Positions 3,213 through 19,628 of a stretch of DNA of 45,051 nt are shown in pieces; position 1 is the first letter of the stretch, and the number at the start of each line of letters is the position of its first letter. The notes below the pieces were generated by a model that had not been told where the DNA came from, made no database searches, and saw nothing but the letters and a program-made list of their open reading frames with translations. The translations under genes and the position numbers were made by a program. Source of the DNA: Gemmatimonadota bacterium (GTDB taxonomy: Bacteria; 4572-55; J002); NCBI GenBank assembly GCA_003697105.1, contig RFFQ01000183.1:1-45051 (forward strand), in the 5' to 3' direction.

Positions 3213-5003
3213 TTGGATACTTCCAAAAAGCGACTTCTCTTTGAAGTTTATCGACCATACCGGGTGCTAATCCTCCTGTTTATTAGTATTTCCTTCTTTT
3301 CATCTATCCTCGACAGCATTTCTATCGGTCTATTTGTTCCAATCCTCGGTAGCTTGCAAGAGGTACAAGATACTTCGGCATTCCCTCCCGCGCTCCAATT
3401 TTTGTTAGATGCCTTCATGGTATTTCCCCCGGAACAACGCCTGTTATACTCTATGGGGGCAGTCATTGTATTGGTGATTCTCAAAAACTTGTTTATGGGA
3501 TTCGCATTTTTGCTGGGATTTTGGTTAGCTTCCAAAATTGTAGCCGATATCCGTGTCCGTATGATCAATGTGTTACTGCGCGTCCGGCAAGATTACTTTG
3601 ATAAATATCAGGTCGGGCGGCTGATCGATAAGGTGATGTATCATTCGCAGATGTTTCAAGTATTCCTGCAAGAAATCTGTCGATCTGTGGTCTTTTTGGG
3701 GTCATTATTCACCTTGCTAGTCTTGGCAATTGCGATCTCATGGCAGTTGACGCTACTGGCAACCGGGCTATTTTCTTTGATTATGATAATAATGCTTTTT
3801 TACGGGCGTTTACTCCACTATCTTGGCCAGAAACGCACTCTAGCGAGCCAAGATTTGTCCGGTAACTTAGGAGAACTCCTGAACGGTATCCGGGGGATCA
3901 AATATTTTAATAAAGAGACCCTTTACCAGCAAAAATTGAATCGCAGTATCCACCGGTTTCGGGTTGCCGCGTATCAAGCGAGTTTTGCGGGGTCACTGGT
4001 GATGCTGATTACAGAAAGCCTGGCAGTATTGGCAGTAGGTTTCCTGTTTGTGGTGGCGTTGAACGTTTTTGCCCCCGACAAAAGTGTTCTACAAATTCAA
4101 CTTTTGCCGTTTCTGTATATTCTGGTACGCATGGTGCCATTGATCAAGATGTTAAATTTCGCTAAGGGCAATATTATTAACCAGTTACCTTCAATAAATC
4201 TGGTTTTAGACCTGATTCGTACCGATGATAAACCGTTTTTAACCGATGGAACGCAGCCATTTACTCATCTGAAAAAGGAAATCCGGTTTGAAAATGTAAG
4301 TTTTGGGTATAAGACGGAAAAACCAGACGTAATCCGGCATCTAACACTTACCATCCCGAAAGGCAAAACCACGGCAATTGTGGGAGAGTCTGGAGCGGGC
4401 AAGTCAACTCTTATCAATTTGTTGCTACGGTTTTATGACCCCCAGAGCGGGCGCATTCTCATCGATGGGCAACCATTAACAAACTTTCGGATTGGTACCT
4501 TTCGGGATCAAGTGGGTATGGTCAGCCAAGAGACGTTTATCTTTAATGATACGATTCGGAATAATATCGCGTTCGGCGCTAAACATGAGGTTGACGACCT
4601 AGCGATCATCCGGGCAGCAACCCGGGCGAAAGCCCATGAATTTATCATGAAAACACCAAAGGGTTATGAAACCCCACTGGGTGACCGGGGGATAAATCTC
4701 TCAGTGGGACAACGCCAGCGGATTGCAATTGCGCGGGCACTCCTCAAAGACCCGGATATCCTGATTTTAGATGAAGCCACTTCTGCACTGGATAATCGCA
4801 CAGAAAAACAGGTGCATCACGCCCTGATGGAACTGTGCAAAAATCGCACAGTGATTATCATTGCCCACCGGTTGAGCACGATTCAACACGCGGATCAAAT
4901 CGTGGTGCTCAAAGCGGGTCAGGTGGTCGAATTGGGCAGTGAAACCCAGTTAATGAACCAAAAAGGTGAGTATTATCAATTGGCTCAGGCGACACATACC
5001 TGA
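3213..5003 (+). CDS. MsbA-like ABC exporter (fused membrane and ATPase domains)
   Basis: A 596-residue ABC half-transporter. Residues about 15-320 form a six-helix exporter membrane domain; the nucleotide-binding domain follows, with Walker A GESGAGKST from residue 391, an LSVGQRQR signature and Walker B ILILDEATSALD, then the H-loop AHRLST. These proteins homodimerise and flip lipids, lipid A or glycolipids across the inner membrane; the cargo cannot be told here. The start is a TTG at 3213, supported by AAAGGTG 7 nt upstream; no ATG gives a better fit. It lies 49 bp after the MlaE-type permease and 31 bp before the PhnC-type ATPase, so co-transcription is likely. Confidence 0.9.
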   Translation: MDTSKKRLLFEVYRPYRVLILLFISISFFSSILDSISIGLFVPILGSLQEVQDTSAFPPALQFLLDAFMVFPPEQRLLYSMGAVIVLVILKNLFMGFAFLLGFWLASKIVADIRVRMINVLLRVRQDYFDKYQVGRLIDKVMYHSQMFQVFLQEICRSVVFLGSLFTLLVLAIAISWQLTLLATGLFSLIMIIMLFYGRLLHYLGQKRTLASQDLSGNLGELLNGIRGIKYFNKETLYQQKLNRSIHRFRVAAYQASFAGSLVMLITESLAVLAVGFLFVVALNVFAPDKSVLQIQLLPFLYILVRMVPLIKMLNFAKGNIINQLPSINLVLDLIRTDDKPFLTDGTQPFTHLKKEIRFENVSFGYKTEKPDVIRHLTLTIPKGKTTAIVGESGAGKSTLINLLLRFYDPQSGRILIDGQPLTNFRIGTFRDQVGMVSQETFIFNDTIRNNIAFGAKHEVDDLAIIRAATRAKAHEFIMKTPKGYETPLGDRGINLSVGQRQRIAIARALLKDPDILILDEATSALDNRTEKQVHHALMELCKNRTVIIIAHRLSTIQHADQIVVLKAGQVVELGSETQLMNQKGEYYQLAQATHT

Positions 5004-5034
5004 CCCCAGCATTCATCACCGAGTAGCTTCTACC

Positions 5035-5784
5035 ATGACCCCTATTTTTGAGCTAAAGAACGTCTGTAAGTCCTTCGGTAAGGTGACTGCACTAGATGGA
5101 ATTAACCTGACCATCATGCCTACGGAACGGGTGGCAATTGTGGGTCCCAGTGGTGCCGGTAAAACTACCTTGCTGAACCTACTGAATGGCTCGATCCGGC
5201 CAGATGCGGGAGAAGTTCGTGTGTTGGGGCAGAACCTCACCACACTGAGTCGGAAGCAACTGCGCCACATCCAGCGGCAGATCGGGACGGTGTACCAGCA
5301 GTTTCATCTCGTGGAGCCGCTACGGGTCATTCACAATATCAATGCCGGACATTTAGGACATTGGTCAGCGACAAAAGCGTTGTTTTCACTCATTAAACCA
5401 CTTGCGGTAGCGCAGGCACAGGAGGCATTGGTACAAGTAGGTATCCCCGAAAAGCTCTATGCGCAAACAAGCCATCTCTCTGGGGGACAAAAACAGCGGG
5501 TCGCGCTGGCGCGGGTATTGGTGCAGAACCCCCAAGCCATTCTTGCCGATGAACCTATCTCGAACCTTGATCCGCGTCGCCGGCATGAAATCATGGATTT
5601 AATTCGCCGGCTGGTCGATCAGACAGGTAAAACGTTAATCCTCAATCTTCATTCCATCGAATTTGCCTATACTCACTGCCACCGGATCATTGGATTGCGC
5701 CACGGGCGTATTCAGTTTGATGATGTTCCGGAGCGTATCAGCGAACAGCACGTGCATGAGCTTTACCGCCTTGAAACCCTCTGA
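5035..5784 (+). CDS. phnC: PhnC-type ABC transporter ATP-binding protein
   Basis: A 249-residue ABC ATPase. Walker A is GPSGAGKTT (residues 37-45), the Q-loop is YQQFHLV, the signature is LSGGQKQR, Walker B reads AILADEP followed by the D-loop SNLD, and the switch histidine is in LNLHSIEFA. Overall it resembles PhnC, the ATPase of phosphonate/phosphite/phosphate importers. The ATG at 5035 fits the family N-terminus ([10 protein letters not shown]); an in-frame start at 4966 would overlap the upstream gene and adds 23 unrelated residues. The next gene, a PhnE-type permease, begins inside its last 29 bp, so the two are translationally coupled and probably form one transporter. Confidence 0.85.
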
Positions 5785-7444
5785 CACTCGCAACGTTCCA
5801 TCCCCGCCGCCGTTATGGCATCGCCGGTTTTGGTTGCTAAGTTTTGGGGTAGCTCTGGTGTTCTCGCTGGGGCAAACCGGTTTTTTTCGGGAAGAGTTGG
5901 TCAATTATGGCGGTGTCGCGTTGATCGGGCGGGTATTCGGTGCCGCCTTACACCCCGACCTGAGCCTCTCCTTTCTCCGCCTAACATTGGATGCCACATT
6001 GGTTACGCTGGCGTATGCCGTTTGCGGAACAGCATTTAGCCTGATCTTCGGCAGCCTATTGGCCTTACCCGCATCCCAGATATTTTGGAAGACCGTTTTC
6101 CGCCATGACGCCTCCTCGCGCCGGGCACGGGTCTGCTGGCTAACGGTACGGACACTCCTTGCCATACCACGGGGTATCCACGAATTCTTATGGGGCTTAA
6201 TTTTTATCAACATCTTAGGGCTAGACCCGATCTCGGCAATCCTCGCGATTACCATCCCTTTTGGCTCGATTGTCGCCAAAGTTTACTCGGAAACACTGGA
6301 TGAAACCTCACCAGTGGTGTTTAATGCTCTCCTTAACAGCGGCGCTAAACCATTCCCAGCACTGTTTTATGCCTTGATTCCTCAAGCTATACCAGATTTA
6401 GTCTCATATGCCTTTTACCGGTTTGAGTGTGCTATCCGAGCAGCGGCAGTATTGGGGGTAATCGGGGTGGGTGGATTGGGATACCAAATTTTGCTCAGCT
6501 TACAAAGTTTAAAATATCAGGAGTTGTGGACTCTCTTTTTTGCCCTGATGGTACTCAGTGGGGGTGCAGACCTTTGGAGTAGTGTGTTGCGGAAACGGCT
6601 CACACAGGAACAATCCGATTCCGCTTCCATTCGATTTTTAGTGCGCGGTTCAATCCTCTTAGCGATAGTATTATTACCGGTTTCACTCGGATATGTGCAG
6701 CCGGATTTTGGACGTATTTTTTCCGAGCGCACCGGTAGATTAATCATTTCTATCACAGATCAAGCGTTTCCACCGCGTTATGAACCGGGTCAAACGGGGT
6801 ACATGCTCGCCCTGTCAATGAAGACGCTGGCAATGTCGCTATTAGCGATGGTCTTTGCCAGTTTTGGTGGGATGGTCTTTGCCTTTTTTGCCGCCAGAAA
6901 CCTGCTTTTGCCGGGTGGGATTATGATCCCCGAAAAAGCGTCTCTCTGGCAGCGGTTTTCCGGCAGGTTGGTATGGGTTGTTTCCCGAATGATCCTGCTT
7001 TTTACGCGGGCGATCCCCGCCCCCATTTGGGCGCTAATCTGTCTCTTTGTGCTTTTCCCGGGTATTCTCCCCGGAGCGATTGCCCTCGGGCTTTACAATT
7101 TTGGGATCCTCGGACGTTTGATGGCAGAAGTAGTGGAACATCTAGACCCCCGCCCCCTAAATGCACTTAAACATCAGGGAGCTTCGGGCTGGCAAGTCTT
7201 TTTTTACGGCGTTCTGCCTTCAGCCATGCCCCGCTTTTTGGCATACAGCCTTTACCGGTGGGAAGTTTGCTTGCGGGCTACGGTGATTGTGGGGCTAGTG
7301 GGAGCTGGGGGTTTGGGCCGTCTCCTCACAGAGCAACTCAGCAGTTTTGATTACCGGGGATTAGGGGTTACGTTGGCATATTTCATCGCACTGACCTTTT
7401 TTGTTGACCTCGTGAGCGCCTTTGTCCGAAAGACATGGCATTGA
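5756..7444 (+). CDS. fused PhnE-PhnE phosphonate-type ABC permease
   Basis: A 562-residue permease holding two complete binding-protein-dependent transport membrane domains in one chain. Each half ends in the same coupling-helix region: IPQAIPDLVSYAFYRFE with GVIGVGGLGYQI in the first, and LPSAMPRFLAYSLYRWE with GLVGAGGLGRLL in the second. In most PhnCDE systems two separate PhnE chains form the channel; here the fusion makes both halves. The ATG at 5756 overlaps phnC by 29 bp; the longer frame from 5663 only reads phnC in another frame. Phosphonate, phosphite, phosphate or another small anion is possible. The candidate binding protein is 5.7 kb away at 13166-14116 on the other strand. Confidence 0.88.
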   Translation: MSFTALKPSDTRNVPSPPPLWHRRFWLLSFGVALVFSLGQTGFFREELVNYGGVALIGRVFGAALHPDLSLSFLRLTLDATLVTLAYAVCGTAFSLIFGSLLALPASQIFWKTVFRHDASSRRARVCWLTVRTLLAIPRGIHEFLWGLIFINILGLDPISAILAITIPFGSIVAKVYSETLDETSPVVFNALLNSGAKPFPALFYALIPQAIPDLVSYAFYRFECAIRAAAVLGVIGVGGLGYQILLSLQSLKYQELWTLFFALMVLSGGADLWSSVLRKRLTQEQSDSASIRFLVRGSILLAIVLLPVSLGYVQPDFGRIFSERTGRLIISITDQAFPPRYEPGQTGYMLALSMKTLAMSLLAMVFASFGGMVFAFFAARNLLLPGGIMIPEKASLWQRFSGRLVWVVSRMILLFTRAIPAPIWALICLFVLFPGILPGAIALGLYNFGILGRLMAEVVEHLDPRPLNALKHQGASGWQVFFYGVLPSAMPRFLAYSLYRWEVCLRATVIVGLVGAGGLGRLLTEQLSSFDYRGLGVTLAYFIALTFFVDLVSAFVRKTWH

Positions 7445-7541: not shown

Positions 7542-8924
7542 ATGAGTGATAGTTATAAAGGTTACCGGGAGCCGGTATTAAGTGTACTCAAAAAAAACAA
7601 CGTTCGGGTGTGGAGCGAAGTAGAAATGCAAACCACTCGCGGGGAATTTAAGGGCTTGATTTTGCCCCGTTCCGAGACCGCCGATGCCAAACACATCGTC
7701 TTGAAATTGATCAATGGCTACAATATCGGGATTGCCGCCGAGTTGGTTCAGTCCATCCGGGAAGTGGGCTACAAAGAGGCACATTACCAAATTCCCGAAA
7801 AAGATTTTCCGGTAGATGAGGGCAAACCGAATGTCAAATTGCTCGGAACCGGAGGCACAATTGCCAGCCGGCTGGATTATCGCACTGGGGCGGTTATTCC
7901 GGCATTTTCTCCCGGCGAATTGTACGGCTCTGTACCGGAATTAGCGGATTACTGTAATCTGGAAACCGAAAAATTGTTCGGGGTGTTTAGTGAAAACATG
8001 GGTCCGGAACAGTGGATAAAAACCGCCGAAGCGATTGGTGAAGAAATTGAAAAGGGCGTGGACGGCATTGTCATCGGGCACGGCACGGATACGATGCACC
8101 ACACGGCGGCCGTACTCTCCTTTATGGTGCAGAATTCACCCATCCCGATTGTGATGGTCGGTTCGCAACGTTCGTCGGATCGCCCTTCGTCCGATGCCGC
8201 ACTCAACCTTATTCATGCCGTCAAGACGGCGGCGGAAAGTGATATGGCAGAAACGATGGTCTGTATGTTTGGTCCCACCTCGGATCAATACGGACTGTTA
8301 CATCGAGGGACGCGAGTTCGCAAAATGCACTCCTCGTACCGTTCCACCTTTCGGACGATCAGTGATATACCGCTGGCAATGGTGGACCGGGATAAGATAA
8401 CACCCCTACGGCAAGATTACAAACGGCGGCGCTCAGACCGGAATGTGAATATCAACGCCGTGTTCGAGGAAAAAGTCTCCATCGTCTATTATTATCCCAA
8501 TATGAAGCCGGACATCATCGATTCGTTGGTGGACAATGGGTACCGGGGTATTGTCATTGCCGGAACGGGGTTAGGTCATGTCAATAAGCCGGTCTATCCG
8601 GCATTACAACGCGCACGGGAGCACGGTGTGGCAGTTTACATGACGGTACAAACGTTATGGGGCTATGTGCAAATGTATGTCTATGAAACCGGACGGGAAA
8701 TGATGCAACTGGGTGTTGTTCCTACGGCAAATATGCTTCCGGAAACGGCGTATGTGAAATTGGGTTGGGCATTGGGGCAAACAGATGATCTGGAAAAAGT
8801 GAAGGAGATCATGTTGACCCCTATTAGTGGAGAAATCACAGAACGTGAGCCTTACAACGGCTATTTAGTCTATCAAGGGGGTATCCCCGAAGTAGAAGAA
8901 TTTTTGCGACAAATTAAGCGCTAA
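7542..8924 (+). CDS. gatD: Glu-tRNA(Gln) amidotransferase subunit D (archaeal-type GatD)
   Basis: A 460-residue protein. Residues about 1-90 match the GatD-specific N-terminal domain, including RGEFKGLILPRS and IVLKLINGYNIGI. The rest is an L-asparaginase-type amidohydrolase core with the threonine motif LGTGGTIAS (Thr106) and the second motif GHGTDTM (Thr182-Asp183). In archaea GatD releases ammonia from glutamine or asparagine and passes it to GatE, which amidates Glu-tRNA(Gln). The start is clear: AAAGGAGT lies 8 nt before the ATG. No gatE, gatA, gatB or gatC gene is in the window. It could work as an amidohydrolase without tRNA partners, but the specific N-terminal domain makes a plain asparaginase unlikely. 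Bacterial occurrence is unusual; see findings. Confidence 0.87.
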   Translation: MSDSYKGYREPVLSVLKKNNVRVWSEVEMQTTRGEFKGLILPRSETADAKHIVLKLINGYNIGIAAELVQSIREVGYKEAHYQIPEKDFPVDEGKPNVKLLGTGGTIASRLDYRTGAVIPAFSPGELYGSVPELADYCNLETEKLFGVFSENMGPEQWIKTAEAIGEEIEKGVDGIVIGHGTDTMHHTAAVLSFMVQNSPIPIVMVGSQRSSDRPSSDAALNLIHAVKTAAESDMAETMVCMFGPTSDQYGLLHRGTRVRKMHSSYRSTFRTISDIPLAMVDRDKITPLRQDYKRRRSDRNVNINAVFEEKVSIVYYYPNMKPDIIDSLVDNGYRGIVIAGTGLGHVNKPVYPALQRAREHGVAVYMTVQTLWGYVQMYVYETGREMMQLGVVPTANMLPETAYVKLGWALGQTDDLEKVKEIMLTPISGEITEREPYNGYLVYQGGIPEVEEFLRQIKR

Positions 8925-9037: not shown

Positions 9038-12000
9038 ATGCCAAAAACACACCTCACATCTCAATCCCCCCGTTTCACAGGGAGACAACTTCCGATTACG
9101 ATAGGGCTAGTGATCATCATCGCGGCGGTGTTTAGCTTGAGTGAGGGGTTTCACCGTCAAACGGCTGAAATTGAACGACTTCAAACCCTTGCCAACATCG
9201 TGGGTGAGCAGTGCATAGAGCCGATCCTCGAAAATGATCCCGCTTCAGCTAAAATCATTTTGAGCCGCCTCAACGCAGACCCGTGCATTCAAGCAGTCGC
9301 AATTTACAATCCCGATGGTGATATTTTTACCGCCTATAATCCCAACGATCGCTTCTTGCAGACTCAATCCACTGCAGGGCATCACATTGACGATAAACAA
9401 CTGAAAATTTACCACAAAATTTTTCTGCTGGATGAATACATGGGTACGGTGGTGCTCTACGCTCAACCCCCCGATTTATGGGGTATTTGGAAGCGCAATC
9501 TACTCATTGCGTTGGTGTTAATACCACTTCTGCTCTGGGCGCAAATACGTATTTTCAACCGGCGACGGGACACCCGCACTGCCGTACTGGATACCCTCCA
9601 AAAACCCCTTCACGAACTAACCGAAATCAGCCAGGCGGTGGCTCAAGGCAACCGGCTTTCCATCCGGGCAGAAATACCGGAAATTCCTGAAATGGAAGAG
9701 CTGGTTAATGCCTTTAACACGATGTTGGCTAAGATCGAACAAGACCAACATGCGCTACAACAGGCAAAAGAAGCCGCTGAACATGTTGCCCAGCATGCCC
9801 AGCGCCAAGCAGACCATTTACAAGAGACCAATCTGAAACTCAGCCGGGAGATTGAAAAGCGCACCCGCGCGGAACACCTGCTCGAACACCGGCTGCAAGC
9901 AGAACAACTTATCGCCAATATTTCCTCGCATTTTATCAATTTGCCGGTGGACATGATCGACTATGGGGTCAATTACGCGCTGGAGTTAATCGGGGAGTTT
10001 TTGGGGGTCAAACACGGTTATATTTTTATGTTTTCGGAGCAGCGCACCCGTATCCGTCGTGTTTATGATTGGAGTCAGGCAAATACGGCTATCCATGTGG
10101 GGCGTGTTCGGGAAGTGATTTCAGTGGAAAAATCCCCGTGGTTGATTGACAAAATCCGTACTCAGGAAATTGTTGCCCTGCCCAATATTCAGGATTTACC
10201 GGCAGAAGCCCACTCCGAAAAAACCACCTTTTTGGAAAACCATATTCACTCCATGCTCGGCATTCCATTGTCATACACCGGTGTTTTACTGGGGTTTATG
10301 GGGTTCGATGCACCTCAACCGCGCTCGGAATGGTCAACAGATGACATCAAAGTCGTTATGACCGCCGGAGAAATTCTAGTTAATGCTTTGGAACGTAAAA
10401 AGGCAGAAATTGCCTTGCGCGAGAGCGATTCCCGCTTCCGCCAGTTAGCAGAAAATATTGATCAATGCTTTTGGCTTTACGATACCCGACAGGGGTTTTT
10501 GTATGTCAGTTCCGCTTATGAGCGCATCTGGGGTGACTCTATTGAACAGATCAAAACCGATCCGACAGCTTGGCTTGACCGGCTATCTCCAGAAGACCAG
10601 CAAAAATTCAAAGGGGATATGAACCGGTTGTTTACGCCGGGTTTTGATGGTGAACTTCGCATCCAAAAGGCAGGCGAAACCCGCTGGTTGCGGATACGAA
10701 CCTTTGCCGTACCCACCGAAAATCCAGATGAAAGTATGCGTGTCTGCGGCATCACAGAGGACATCACCGCCCAGAAGCGTTCGGAAAACCGGTTGCGCTC
10801 CTACGCCGCTGAATTGGAACACAAAACCCAACAACAACACATGGTGGAAAAAGCGTTGGAGCAACGCGTCCTCTTTGAACGCCTCATTGCAGATATTTCT
10901 ACCCATTTCATCAATCTTCCGGCAGATATGATCCCTTATGGCGTGGACTACGCCTTACAAATGATCTGCGATGTCATTCAAGCCGACCATGCCTACATCT
11001 GGATGTTCACAGAACAACGAACAAAATTTCAAAAAGCGTTTGATTGGTGGGATCATCAAACCTTGGTGGGGTCACCGCCAGTTGATTTTGTTTTGCCGCT
11101 GGATGAGGGCAGTTGGTTTCTGGAAAAGATTAAACAATTAGAGACCATCGCGGTGGCGCATCTCCGTGACCTTCCACCGGAAGCACAACGGGAAAAACTG
11201 CATTTAAGTACCATCGGGGTGCAATCCTTTATCGTGTTACCACTGGTATATACCGGCGTACTCATTGGCTTTTTAGGGTTTGATGCCATTCGGTGCGAAA
11301 AAGAGTGGACGGAATCCGAGATCAGCCTGATGAATACGGTTGCTGAGATTTTGGTCAATGCGTTAGAGCGGAAACAAGCCGAAGAAGCCTTACGGGAGAG
11401 TGACTCTCGCTTCCGGCAACTCGCCGAAAATATCAATCAGTGTTTTTGGCTGTATGATACCCGGCAAGGGTTTTTGTATGTCAGTCCCGCATTTGAATTG
11501 ATTTGGGGATTTTCACGCGAAGCCCTACTCCAACATCCGCAAACGATGTTGGATCAGGTCATCGCGGACGATCAAGCTAAATTCAAAGGTAGCTTGACCC
11601 AGATGCTTAAAGCGGGGTACGATGAGGAGTTTCGGATTGAAAAAGCGGATGGCTTGCATTGGTTGCGCACCCGCACCTTTGCGGTTCACGCGGAAGGATT
11701 AGGACAAGGGCAGCGAGTTTGCGGCATCACAGAAGACATCACCAAGGAGAAAATTACGCAGGAGCAGTTCCGCACCTATGTCAAGGCACTGGAAATCAAA
11801 ACCCAAAAGCAGATGGAAGCCGAAAAAGCGTTAGCAGCCGAAAAAGAACGACTGCTAGTCACTTTGCGCAGTGTCGCTGATGGGGTGATCGCGACCGATA
11901 CGCACGGCCAGATTGTGTTGATGAATACGATTGCCGAGCATTTGACGGGCTGGAAAGAATCCGATGCCCTGAATAAACCGTTGAATGAAGTTTTGCGAGT

Positions 12001-12931
12001 CGTGGATGAACCCTCCCGGCATGTCCGCACAGATATTTTGAATAACGTCCTCCACCGGGGGCGGATTATCCATTTCTCCCGGGATGATGTGTTGGTTTCA
12101 CGGAACAAAAGTGAATATTATATTTCGGGCAATGCGGCACCGATTCAAGACGGGACAGGCGTGATTATCGGGGCCGTGATTGCTTTCCACGATGTGACCG
12201 AAACCCGCCGCTTGGAGCAATCCAAAACCAATTTTATCAATGCCATCACACACGAATTGCGCACACCACTGACCCCCATCATTGGGTACACCGCACTCCT
12301 CCAAAGTATGGACTTACCGGAGATGGCACAGGAAAGCCTCGCCGCCATCGCGAAAGCCGCCGACCGGGAGAAAAAACTGGTGGAACAGTTATTGGCGGTT
12401 GCCCGGTTGGAAAATAGTCAACGGGAGTTCCGTTTTAATAAGGTCAATGCCTACCAGTGCTTCACCGAAATTTGTGAGGATAGCGAAGTGCTCGTCAAGG
12501 AGGTTGTACGAGAACGGCATCGTACGGACCGGTTTACGTACCAATACACATTCTCGGAAGAGTTGCAGGAAACCACGATCAATATTGATCTGGATTGCAT
12601 GTACAGCATCATGGAAAATCTGCTGGTGAATGCCGTCAAATATTCTCCACCGGATCGACTCTCGTTTGCGGTGTCCGGTTACCGGCAAAATGATCATGTG
12701 ATCATCGCGGTGAAAGATCAGGGAAATGGTATTTCCAAAGCGGAACAACCCCGCATCTTCAAAACGTTTTACCAGATTCGGAAAGGTGAATTTGATGTTT
12801 CCGATGGAATTGGACAGGGGTTGGCGATTGTGAAACGGTTTGTGGAAGCCCACGACGGAGTGATTTCCGTAGAGAGCGAACTCGGGAAAGGTAGCGAGTT
12901 TATTATTGAATTACCGGTTGTGGAGACCTAA
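9038..12931 (+). CDS. multidomain membrane sensor histidine kinase (HAMP, two GAF-PAS units, PAS, HisKA, HATPase)
   Basis: A 1297-residue hybrid-free sensor kinase. A membrane helix at about 18-36 and another at about 150-170 bracket a sensor region outside the cytoplasm; a HAMP-like linker and coiled coil follow to about 285. Then come GAF (about 286-455) and PAS (about 460-590), repeated as GAF (about 610-780) and PAS (about 785-910), then a third PAS (about 938-1058). The phospho-acceptor is His1072 in ITHELRTPLTP; the N-box MENLLVNAVKYSP and G-boxes KDQGNGIS and GIGQGLAIV show an intact ATPase domain. No response regulator gene is near, so its partner lies elsewhere. It ends convergent with the PhnD-like gene. 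Confidence 0.92.
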   Translation: MPKTHLTSQSPRFTGRQLPITIGLVIIIAAVFSLSEGFHRQTAEIERLQTLANIVGEQCIEPILENDPASAKIILSRLNADPCIQAVAIYNPDGDIFTAYNPNDRFLQTQSTAGHHIDDKQLKIYHKIFLLDEYMGTVVLYAQPPDLWGIWKRNLLIALVLIPLLLWAQIRIFNRRRDTRTAVLDTLQKPLHELTEISQAVAQGNRLSIRAEIPEIPEMEELVNAFNTMLAKIEQDQHALQQAKEAAEHVAQHAQRQADHLQETNLKLSREIEKRTRAEHLLEHRLQAEQLIANISSHFINLPVDMIDYGVNYALELIGEFLGVKHGYIFMFSEQRTRIRRVYDWSQANTAIHVGRVREVISVEKSPWLIDKIRTQEIVALPNIQDLPAEAHSEKTTFLENHIHSMLGIPLSYTGVLLGFMGFDAPQPRSEWSTDDIKVVMTAGEILVNALERKKAEIALRESDSRFRQLAENIDQCFWLYDTRQGFLYVSSAYERIWGDSIEQIKTDPTAWLDRLSPEDQQKFKGDMNRLFTPGFDGELRIQKAGETRWLRIRTFAVPTENPDESMRVCGITEDITAQKRSENRLRSYAAELEHKTQQQHMVEKALEQRVLFERLIADISTHFINLPADMIPYGVDYALQMICDVIQADHAYIWMFTEQRTKFQKAFDWWDHQTLVGSPPVDFVLPLDEGSWFLEKIKQLETIAVAHLRDLPPEAQREKLHLSTIGVQSFIVLPLVYTGVLIGFLGFDAIRCEKEWTESEISLMNTVAEILVNALERKQAEEALRESDSRFRQLAENINQCFWLYDTRQGFLYVSPAFELIWGFSREALLQHPQTMLDQVIADDQAKFKGSLTQMLKAGYDEEFRIEKADGLHWLRTRTFAVHAEGLGQGQRVCGITEDITKEKITQEQFRTYVKALEIKTQKQMEAEKALAAEKERLLVTLRSVADGVIATDTHGQIVLMNTIAEHLTGWKESDALNKPLNEVLRVVDEPSRHVRTDILNNVLHRGRIIHFSRDDVLVSRNKSEYYISGNAAPIQDGTGVIIGAVIAFHDVTETRRLEQSKTNFINAITHELRTPLTPIIGYTALLQSMDLPEMAQESLAAIAKAADREKKLVEQLLAVARLENSQREFRFNKVNAYQCFTEICEDSEVLVKEVVRERHRTDRFTYQYTFSEELQETTINIDLDCMYSIMENLLVNAVKYSPPDRLSFAVSGYRQNDHVIIAVKDQGNGISKAEQPRIFKTFYQIRKGEFDVSDGIGQGLAIVKRFVEAHDGVISVESELGKGSEFIIELPVVET

Positions 12932-13165: not shown

Positions 13166-14116
13166 TTAATCGACAATTTTCCCGATCTGGCGCCCCACCG
13201 CTTCAATGTGATCATAATTGGCGTTTGTGGTGGGGATAAATTGGGTGGCGCCAAACATATCAAGGATTTTTGCCTGTGTGGAATCTGCCGCATTCAAGGC
13301 GGTAAAGGCATCCGTTACCTTTTGTGGAAAATCTGTACCGTAACGAGTTATGACATCCGGGTGAATCACCCAATGATAGTCATGATAAGCGGGTGTGCGC
13401 CAGATAGCTTGCACTTTTGCCAAATCAACATCTCCCGTCTGGAGCCGGCTATACCAAACCTGCTCATTAAGCACGCCGGCATCGTATGCTCCGGCGGTAA
13501 CCAGTTCGATGGTTTTATCATGGGAGCCGGAAAAGCCGGGTTCACCCTTAAAATCGGTCAATTCTATTCCGGCTTGGCTCAAAAAGTACTGGGGCATCAA
13601 CCGCCCGGAAGTGGAGGATTCACTCCCGAAGGTGAACGTGTGCCCTTTTAACGCACCGAGTTTTTCCCGCACCACATCCCACTCATCGGTGTCGGCGATG
13701 GGTTGCAAACCCGTGGAGGTATTGGCGATAAAAATAGAATGAAACTCGGCGTCAATATCCCGTTGAACGAGCGCCTGAGCACCGGGTACTTGCAACCGCG
13801 CCTGTACTCCAGTTAAACCTCCAAACCAGACCATATCCAGATCACCCACTCGAAAAGCGGTCACGGCGGCAGTATAATCGGTGACCGGTTTGTATTCCAC
13901 CGGAACACCCAATTTTTCAGAGAGATAGGCGGCGAGATCACCATATAACCGTTGCAATTTTTCCGGGTCTTGATCGGGAATTGCCCCAATGACAAAAGGG
14001 GGTGTTGAGGGAGATGTCCCGCTTTGCTGGTGTGTGGTTTGTGAATTGTTCTGCGGAGAACATGCGGTTAGCAACCCCATCAGAATTAGTATCAACAGAT
14101 TCAACATACGCGGCAT
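13166..14116 (-). CDS. PhnD-like phosphate/phosphonate-type ABC substrate-binding lipoprotein
   Basis: A 316-residue binding protein of the PhnD family (PF12974). It has a lipoprotein signal with lipobox LLTAC (Cys19), a Ser/Thr/Pro-rich linker, then IGAIPDQDPEKLQRLYGDLA, a DLDMVWFGGLTGVQA segment, FGSESSTSGRLMPQYFL and a C-terminal lobe. Such proteins bind phosphonate, phosphite or related oxyanions outside the inner membrane and deliver them to a PhnC/PhnE transporter. It is last in the minus-strand run that includes the SLBB and YidD genes (45 bp after YidD), and is separated from phnC and the fused permease by gatD and the kinase. Functional pairing with that transporter is inferred from family match only. 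Confidence 0.85.
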   Translation of the reverse strand: MPRMLNLLILILMGLLTACSPQNNSQTTHQQSGTSPSTPPFVIGAIPDQDPEKLQRLYGDLAAYLSEKLGVPVEYKPVTDYTAAVTAFRVGDLDMVWFGGLTGVQARLQVPGAQALVQRDIDAEFHSIFIANTSTGLQPIADTDEWDVVREKLGALKGHTFTFGSESSTSGRLMPQYFLSQAGIELTDFKGEPGFSGSHDKTIELVTAGAYDAGVLNEQVWYSRLQTGDVDLAKVQAIWRTPAYHDYHWVIHPDVITRYGTDFPQKVTDAFTALNAADSTQAKILDMFGATQFIPTTNANYDHIEAVGRQIGKIVD

Positions 14117-19552: not shown

Positions 19553-19628
19553 TGGCTGGGGCGGCAGGATTCGAACCTGCGAATGCTGGAACCAAAATCC
19601 AGTGTCTTAGCCGCTTGACGACGCCCCA
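19553..19628 (-). tRNA. tRNA-Gln (anticodon UUG)
   Basis: A 76-nt cloverleaf on the minus strand. The acceptor stem pairs TGGGGCG with CGCCCCA, giving a U1-A72 first pair and discriminator G73; CCA is encoded. The anticodon arm is CTGGA-TTTTGGT-TCCAG with anticodon TTG, and the T arm is GCAGG-TTCGAAT-CCTGC. U1-A72 is the bacterial tRNA-Gln type. A T-rich stretch follows the CCA. Confidence 0.96.

Follow-up and report, generated by a model that had tools for sequence, protein, structure and literature searches.

GatDE and the bacterial GatCAB carry out the same overall reaction, and GatB is homologous to GatE. GatCAB, however, takes its ammonia from the amidase GatA and not from an asparaginase-like GatD, and GatB is without the AspRS-like insert. 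Type I asparaginases have the same fold as the catalytic part of GatD, but they have neither its N-terminal GatD_N domain nor a GatE partner. GatDE is stated to be found now in archaea only (PMC9499178, 2022) or to be restricted to archaea (PMC8007984), all of which have it (PMC7541841), and its fit to archaeal tRNA-Gln helps to explain the absence of GlnRS from every archaeon (PMC9499178). A whole-genome survey from 2014, in which bacteria are classed on GluRS, GlnRS and gatCAB, has no mention of GatDE in its text (PMC3927822). We found no description of a bacterial GatDE, and no biochemistry of a bacterial pair, in the open-access literature, although an earlier account in subscription papers is possible; the NCBIfam models name such bacterial proteins GatD and GatE automatically.

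The DNA analysed here (the window, 45,051 nucleotides) is one contig, C65, of a 4.18 Mb draft genome in 199 contigs (96.85% complete, 0.66% contamination). An ORF at 7542–8924 on the forward strand, with an ATG start, encodes a protein of 460 aa that the first-pass annotation had called a GatD in a bacterial genome. Searches with NCBIfam equivalog profiles bear this out, the protein scoring 522.8 bits against TIGR02153 (gatD_arch, cut-off 324) and 520.7 bits against PRK04183 (cut-off 310). The type I asparaginase model TIGR00519 also scores above its cut-off (397 bits, cut-off 260.5), yet lower than both GatD models, and the type II model falls below its own (175 bits, cut-off 314). An ordinary asparaginase, the placement that the same annotation had said would overturn its reading, is ruled out by these scores, which are highest on the GatD models. 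Moreover, the closest solved structures are the archaeal GatD chains 1zq1_A of Pyrococcus abyssi (E 1e-125) and 2d6f_A of Methanothermobacter thermautotrophicus (E 6e-119), far ahead of all others and 44–46% identical to the window protein.

The domain order and catalytic residues are also those of the archaeal enzyme. The suspected GatD-specific N-terminal domain was recovered by Pfam as GatD_N at residues 24–72 (7611–7757; PF18195, 48.9 bits, cut-off 25.7), with the asparaginase N-terminal (7830–8405; PF00710) and C-terminal (8472–8813; PF17763, 116.5 bits) domains behind it. The amidohydrolase threonines, read as intact in the first pass, are indeed present: T106 (7857–7859) and T182, the latter beside D183 (8085–8090), together with K261 (8322–8324), and all four residues occur in 95/95 aligned GatD sequences. 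Two features are unlike the archaeal proteins. Residue 24 is Trp in 92/92 bacterial-type GatD of the alignment and Gly in the three archaeal-type sequences, and a C-terminal extension, NGYLVYQGGIPEVEEFLRQIKR (8856–8921), is common to bacterial GatD but not found in GatD of P. abyssi or M. thermautotrophicus; it is modelled with low confidence. The GC content is 0.50 in gatD and 0.48 in the window as a whole. Compared with its relative in the same class, 260 of 363 base differences lie at third codon positions while the proteins are 85% identical, as expected for a gene under selection. At the level of sequence, the ORF is confirmed as a full-length GatD in a bacterial genome.

As the first-pass annotation had noted, gatE is not adjacent to gatD; it lies outside the window on a separate contig of the source genome, C144 (L003, 958–2898, reverse strand). 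Its product passes both GatE equivalogs (522 bits, cut-off 456; TIGR00134, 457 bits, cut-off 319.55) and can be aligned over its full length to 1zq1_C and 2d6f_C, structures to which the GatE of the class relative (L095) is 37–38% identical. When the GatE of a close relative is modelled, the predicted fold likewise has 1zq1_C and 2d6f as its top PDB matches. An orphan GatD is thereby ruled out, and the source genome encodes a complete GatDE. Of the other genes that the first pass had suggested seeking, GatB is encoded on contig C7 (L002), whilst glnS was found as two pieces, covering profile positions 1–255 at the end of C97 and 307–524 at the end of C78, which probably represent one gene broken by an assembly gap. 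The genome also encodes AsnRS.

To place this pair we examined 116 bacterial genomes, one per family as far as listed. GatD occurs in 14 of them, and these 14, and no others, also have GatE; because the genomes were chosen as relatives of the source genome, 14/116 should not be read as an unbiased frequency. The two genes are adjacent in 11/14, usually as a gatE-gatD operon, a count that includes genome G031, in which gatE is interrupted by a contig break, with its 3′ part immediately ahead of gatD. A scan of GTDB genomes with the GatD alignment matched at least 566 relatives. The best 80 of these loci are 70–85% identical and carry about 17 phylum-level names, among them Ignavibacteriota, Bacteroidota, Calditrichota, Aminicenantota, Planctomycetota, Cloacimonadota and Fermentibacterota, and gatE is present at 70 of the 80, nearly always just upstream of gatD on the same strand. 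Among the carriers at these loci is a cultured isolate, Clostridium tagluense, with a gatE-gatD pair. Spread on plasmids was ruled out, the best listed plasmid matches being asparaginase-like and 31–34% identical. Among viral contigs there was one asparaginase-like match, at 31% identity, and none for the archaeal sequence.

In a GatD tree of archaeal and bacterial sequences, a check proposed in the first pass, bacterial GatD separates from the two archaeal sequences as a single cluster (SH-aLRT 100) with long branches. In a tree rooted on GatB, bacterial GatE is also a single cluster, from which two archaeal GatE and one archaeal-like bacterial sequence are separate (SH-aLRT 86). In each tree the window-genome protein groups with one set of four relatives, the same for GatD and GatE (SH-aLRT 97 and 100, respectively). 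With two archaeal sequences included, these trees make a distinct bacterial clade visible but not the origin of that clade. On the trees and signatures, the source GatDE belongs to a widespread bacterial GatDE clade and is not a stray archaeal gene, in place of the lineage-specific gain that the first-pass annotation had considered. The archaeal-like sequence comes from another bacterial genome, G007 (L017, L021), whose GatD is 42% identical to the window GatD and whose GatE groups with the archaeal ones. This genome has no match to a bacterial-type GluRS, and its GatDE is possibly a separate transfer or contamination.

Archaeal contamination or mis-binning could be suspected for the source genome too, given that it is a 199-contig draft and that most GatDE carriers found are metagenome assemblies. 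However, the flanking genes are bacterial on both contigs: those in the window include PhnC/PhnE-like and MlaE genes, and those around gatE include genes for a mechanosensitive-channel domain, a dihydroorotate dehydrogenase and an acyl-CoA dehydrogenase. The clade with its own signatures, the operon in the isolate C. tagluense and the 85% identity shared with a relative in its class also speak against contamination, which we regard as largely refuted and extremely improbable.

The window also holds a candidate substrate, a tRNA-Gln (UUG) located by ARAGORN at 19553–19628 on the reverse strand. A second tRNA-Gln (CUG) lies on contig C135 of the source genome, and both have U1-A72 and G73; the archaeal-type A1-U72 is absent. 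The first-pass annotation had correctly seen U1-A72 in the window tRNA, but had taken it as a sign of GatCAB. The E. coli tRNA-Gln, a GlnRS substrate, has the same pair and the window tRNA has G73; therefore U1-A72 is not evidence for GatCAB. As a proof of GatCAB dependence it is ruled out by G73 and by genome G031, which has GatDE and no match to GlnRS or GatB and whose tRNA-Gln (CUG) also has U1-A72 and G73 (part of that genome was scanned, and a UUG copy may exist). G73 marks bacterial tRNA-Gln, whereas archaeal tRNA-Gln has A1-U72 and A73 (PMC9499178). A1-U72 belongs to archaeal substrates, and its absence does not by itself rule out membership of GatDE. In G070, which has both GatDE and GlnRS, the tRNA-Gln (CUG; L180, 2959–3032) has U1-A72 but A73.

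Unlike the archaea, the bacterial hosts usually have GlnRS. Among the 14 GatDE genomes, eight have GlnRS without GatB, two have both, three have GatB only and one (G031) matches neither. GlnRS is thus found in 10/14, compared with 36/102 genomes without GatDE (Fisher p 0.017), and GatB is depleted (5/14 versus 86/102; Fisher p 2.6e-4), both tests ignoring shared ancestry. Both subunits with their catalytic residues, their co-occurrence, the operon linkage in relatives and the bacterial clade can be read from the genomes; the tRNA substrate, the GluRS specificity and the physiological role we infer. We consider it likely, with moderate confidence, that GatDE is a working Glu-tRNA(Gln) amidotransferase that provides a second route to Gln-tRNA(Gln) beside GlnRS. 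The window GatD and the unlinked GatE would form a heterodimeric tRNA-dependent amidotransferase in which GatD hydrolyses glutamine or asparagine to ammonia. GatE, with ATP, would activate the side-chain carboxylate of Glu on tRNA(Gln) and amidate it to Gln-tRNA(Gln). The Glu-tRNA(Gln) itself would come from a GluRS whose exclusion of tRNA(Gln) is incomplete. Here and in most sampled GatDE bacteria this route would run parallel to GlnRS, and it is probably conditional or corrective. Genome G031, with GatDE and no match to GlnRS or GatB, speaks for this explanation. The presence of GlnRS in 10/14 GatDE genomes counts against it, since it makes an amidation route look redundant, and so does the strong divergence of bacterial GatE in the parts that read tRNA.

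That same co-occurrence, with the depletion of GatB, fits a repair enzyme which converts Glu-tRNA(Gln) mis-made by GluRS, with GlnRS supplying most of the Gln-tRNA(Gln). Its chemistry would be identical to that of the second route, but it leaves G031 unexplained and leans on an association that ignores shared ancestry, and we think it quite unlikely. Synthesis of Asn-tRNA(Asn) from Asp-tRNA(Asn) might be suggested by the nine of 14 GatDE genomes without GatB, and by two genomes (G026 and G078) without an AsnRS match. However, AsnRS is matched in 13 of 15 GatDE genomes (the 14 with C. tagluense added), the source genome being one of the 13, so that charging of Asn need not be the job of GatDE. 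Moreover, archaea never employ GatDE for tRNA(Asn) (PMC7541841), which leaves the Asn route very unlikely. G026 (L010, L031), although rated 100% complete, has neither a bacterial-type GluRS nor an AsnRS match at the thresholds used.

Bacterial GatE has diverged most in the parts that read tRNA. Mean identity in bacterial GatE is about 70% in the catalytic core, 0.45 in the GAD insert and 0.21 in the helical and tail region. At catalytic identities of 0.55–0.60, bacterial pairs average 0.21 in the tail and 0.35 in the insert, while the single archaeal pair at 0.57 retains 0.38 and 0.59. Pfam scores follow this divergence. GAD reaches 71 and 77 bits in archaea, against 13 bits or no detection in bacteria; in the source GatE the region is present and aligned but scores 13.2 bits (cut-off 23.4). 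The GatB/YqeY tail of the source GatE scores 28.4 bits, just above the cut-off of 27, and falls below it or is absent in some relatives. In the GatE of C. tagluense (L138, 4040–6004) the catalytic domain is the only one that Pfam detects, GAD and YqeY both going unmatched. In GatDE as in GatCAB, the tail domains read the D-loop of tRNA-Gln, and in the archaeal enzyme the tail reads the tRNA elbow (PMC4810234). Because these tRNA-reading parts have diverged far more than the catalytic core, tRNA recognition by bacterial GatE appears to have been either remodelled or relaxed.

The first pass had left a choice between a GatDE fitted to a bacterial tRNA and a GatD that supplies ammonia to another acceptor. 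The former is favoured, if short of proof, by the finding of GatE and by the distribution of the pair. A move to another acceptor, whether a different mis-charged tRNA or a carboxylate outside tRNA, with ammonia supply and ATP-dependent amidation kept, would account for a highly conserved GatD and GatE catalytic core alongside a diverged insert and elbow-reading tail, for the usual presence of GlnRS and for the C. tagluense GatE. Yet both subunits score above the cut-offs for Glu-tRNA(Gln) amidotransferase, and the bacterial tail is predicted to be a folded helical domain. GatB tails, too, diverge faster than the catalytic part (0.31 versus 0.52 identity in GatB from five GatDE genomes), and we judge another acceptor unlikely. 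A broader and still rather doubtful proposal is that bacterial GatDE may be a distinct branch with remodelled tRNA-reading domains that serves different or wider acceptors beside GlnRS, as a further amidation system so far unrecognised.

A GatDE of this kind, widespread in bacteria beside GlnRS and a bacterial-type tRNA-Gln, contradicts the statement that GatDE is confined to archaea. It also offers a natural test of whether the fit of GatDE to archaeal tRNA-Gln helps to explain why archaea have no GlnRS. It adds a category outside the GluRS, GlnRS and gatCAB scheme of the earlier survey (PMC3927822), and a cultured host exists. As GatDE usually stands beside the standard bacterial route, the reason for its retention becomes a testable question.

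GluRS provides one lead in favour of the second route. The source genome has a single detected bacterial-type GluRS (contig C67), with Tyr at the alignment column that we take to be that of Thermus Arg358, located from the Arg conserved in T. maritima GluRS1. This residue is Arg in 12/12 genomes that have GlnRS but neither GatDE nor GatB, and it is also Arg in most GatDE genomes. In H. pylori GluRS1, mutation of the residue at this position is without effect, and T. maritima GluRS1, which has Arg there, is called non-discriminating (PMC3927822). Given these two cases and the Arg of most GatDE genomes, we would treat a change at this position as a weak marker and as a lead only. Second GluRS copies in three GatDE genomes have Lys (G001, L197), Glu (G008, L199) or Gly (G067, L198) in this column.

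Lastly, gatD is directly followed in the window by a gene for a sensor histidine kinase of 1297 aa (9038–12931) with several PAS-type stretches, which nothing ties to the amidotransferase. Phosphonate-type ABC transporter genes flank gatD and the kinase gene on both sides (4966–7444 and 13166–14116), and the set comprises a PhnC-like protein, a PhnE-like permease with two matched stretches and a binding protein on the opposite strand.
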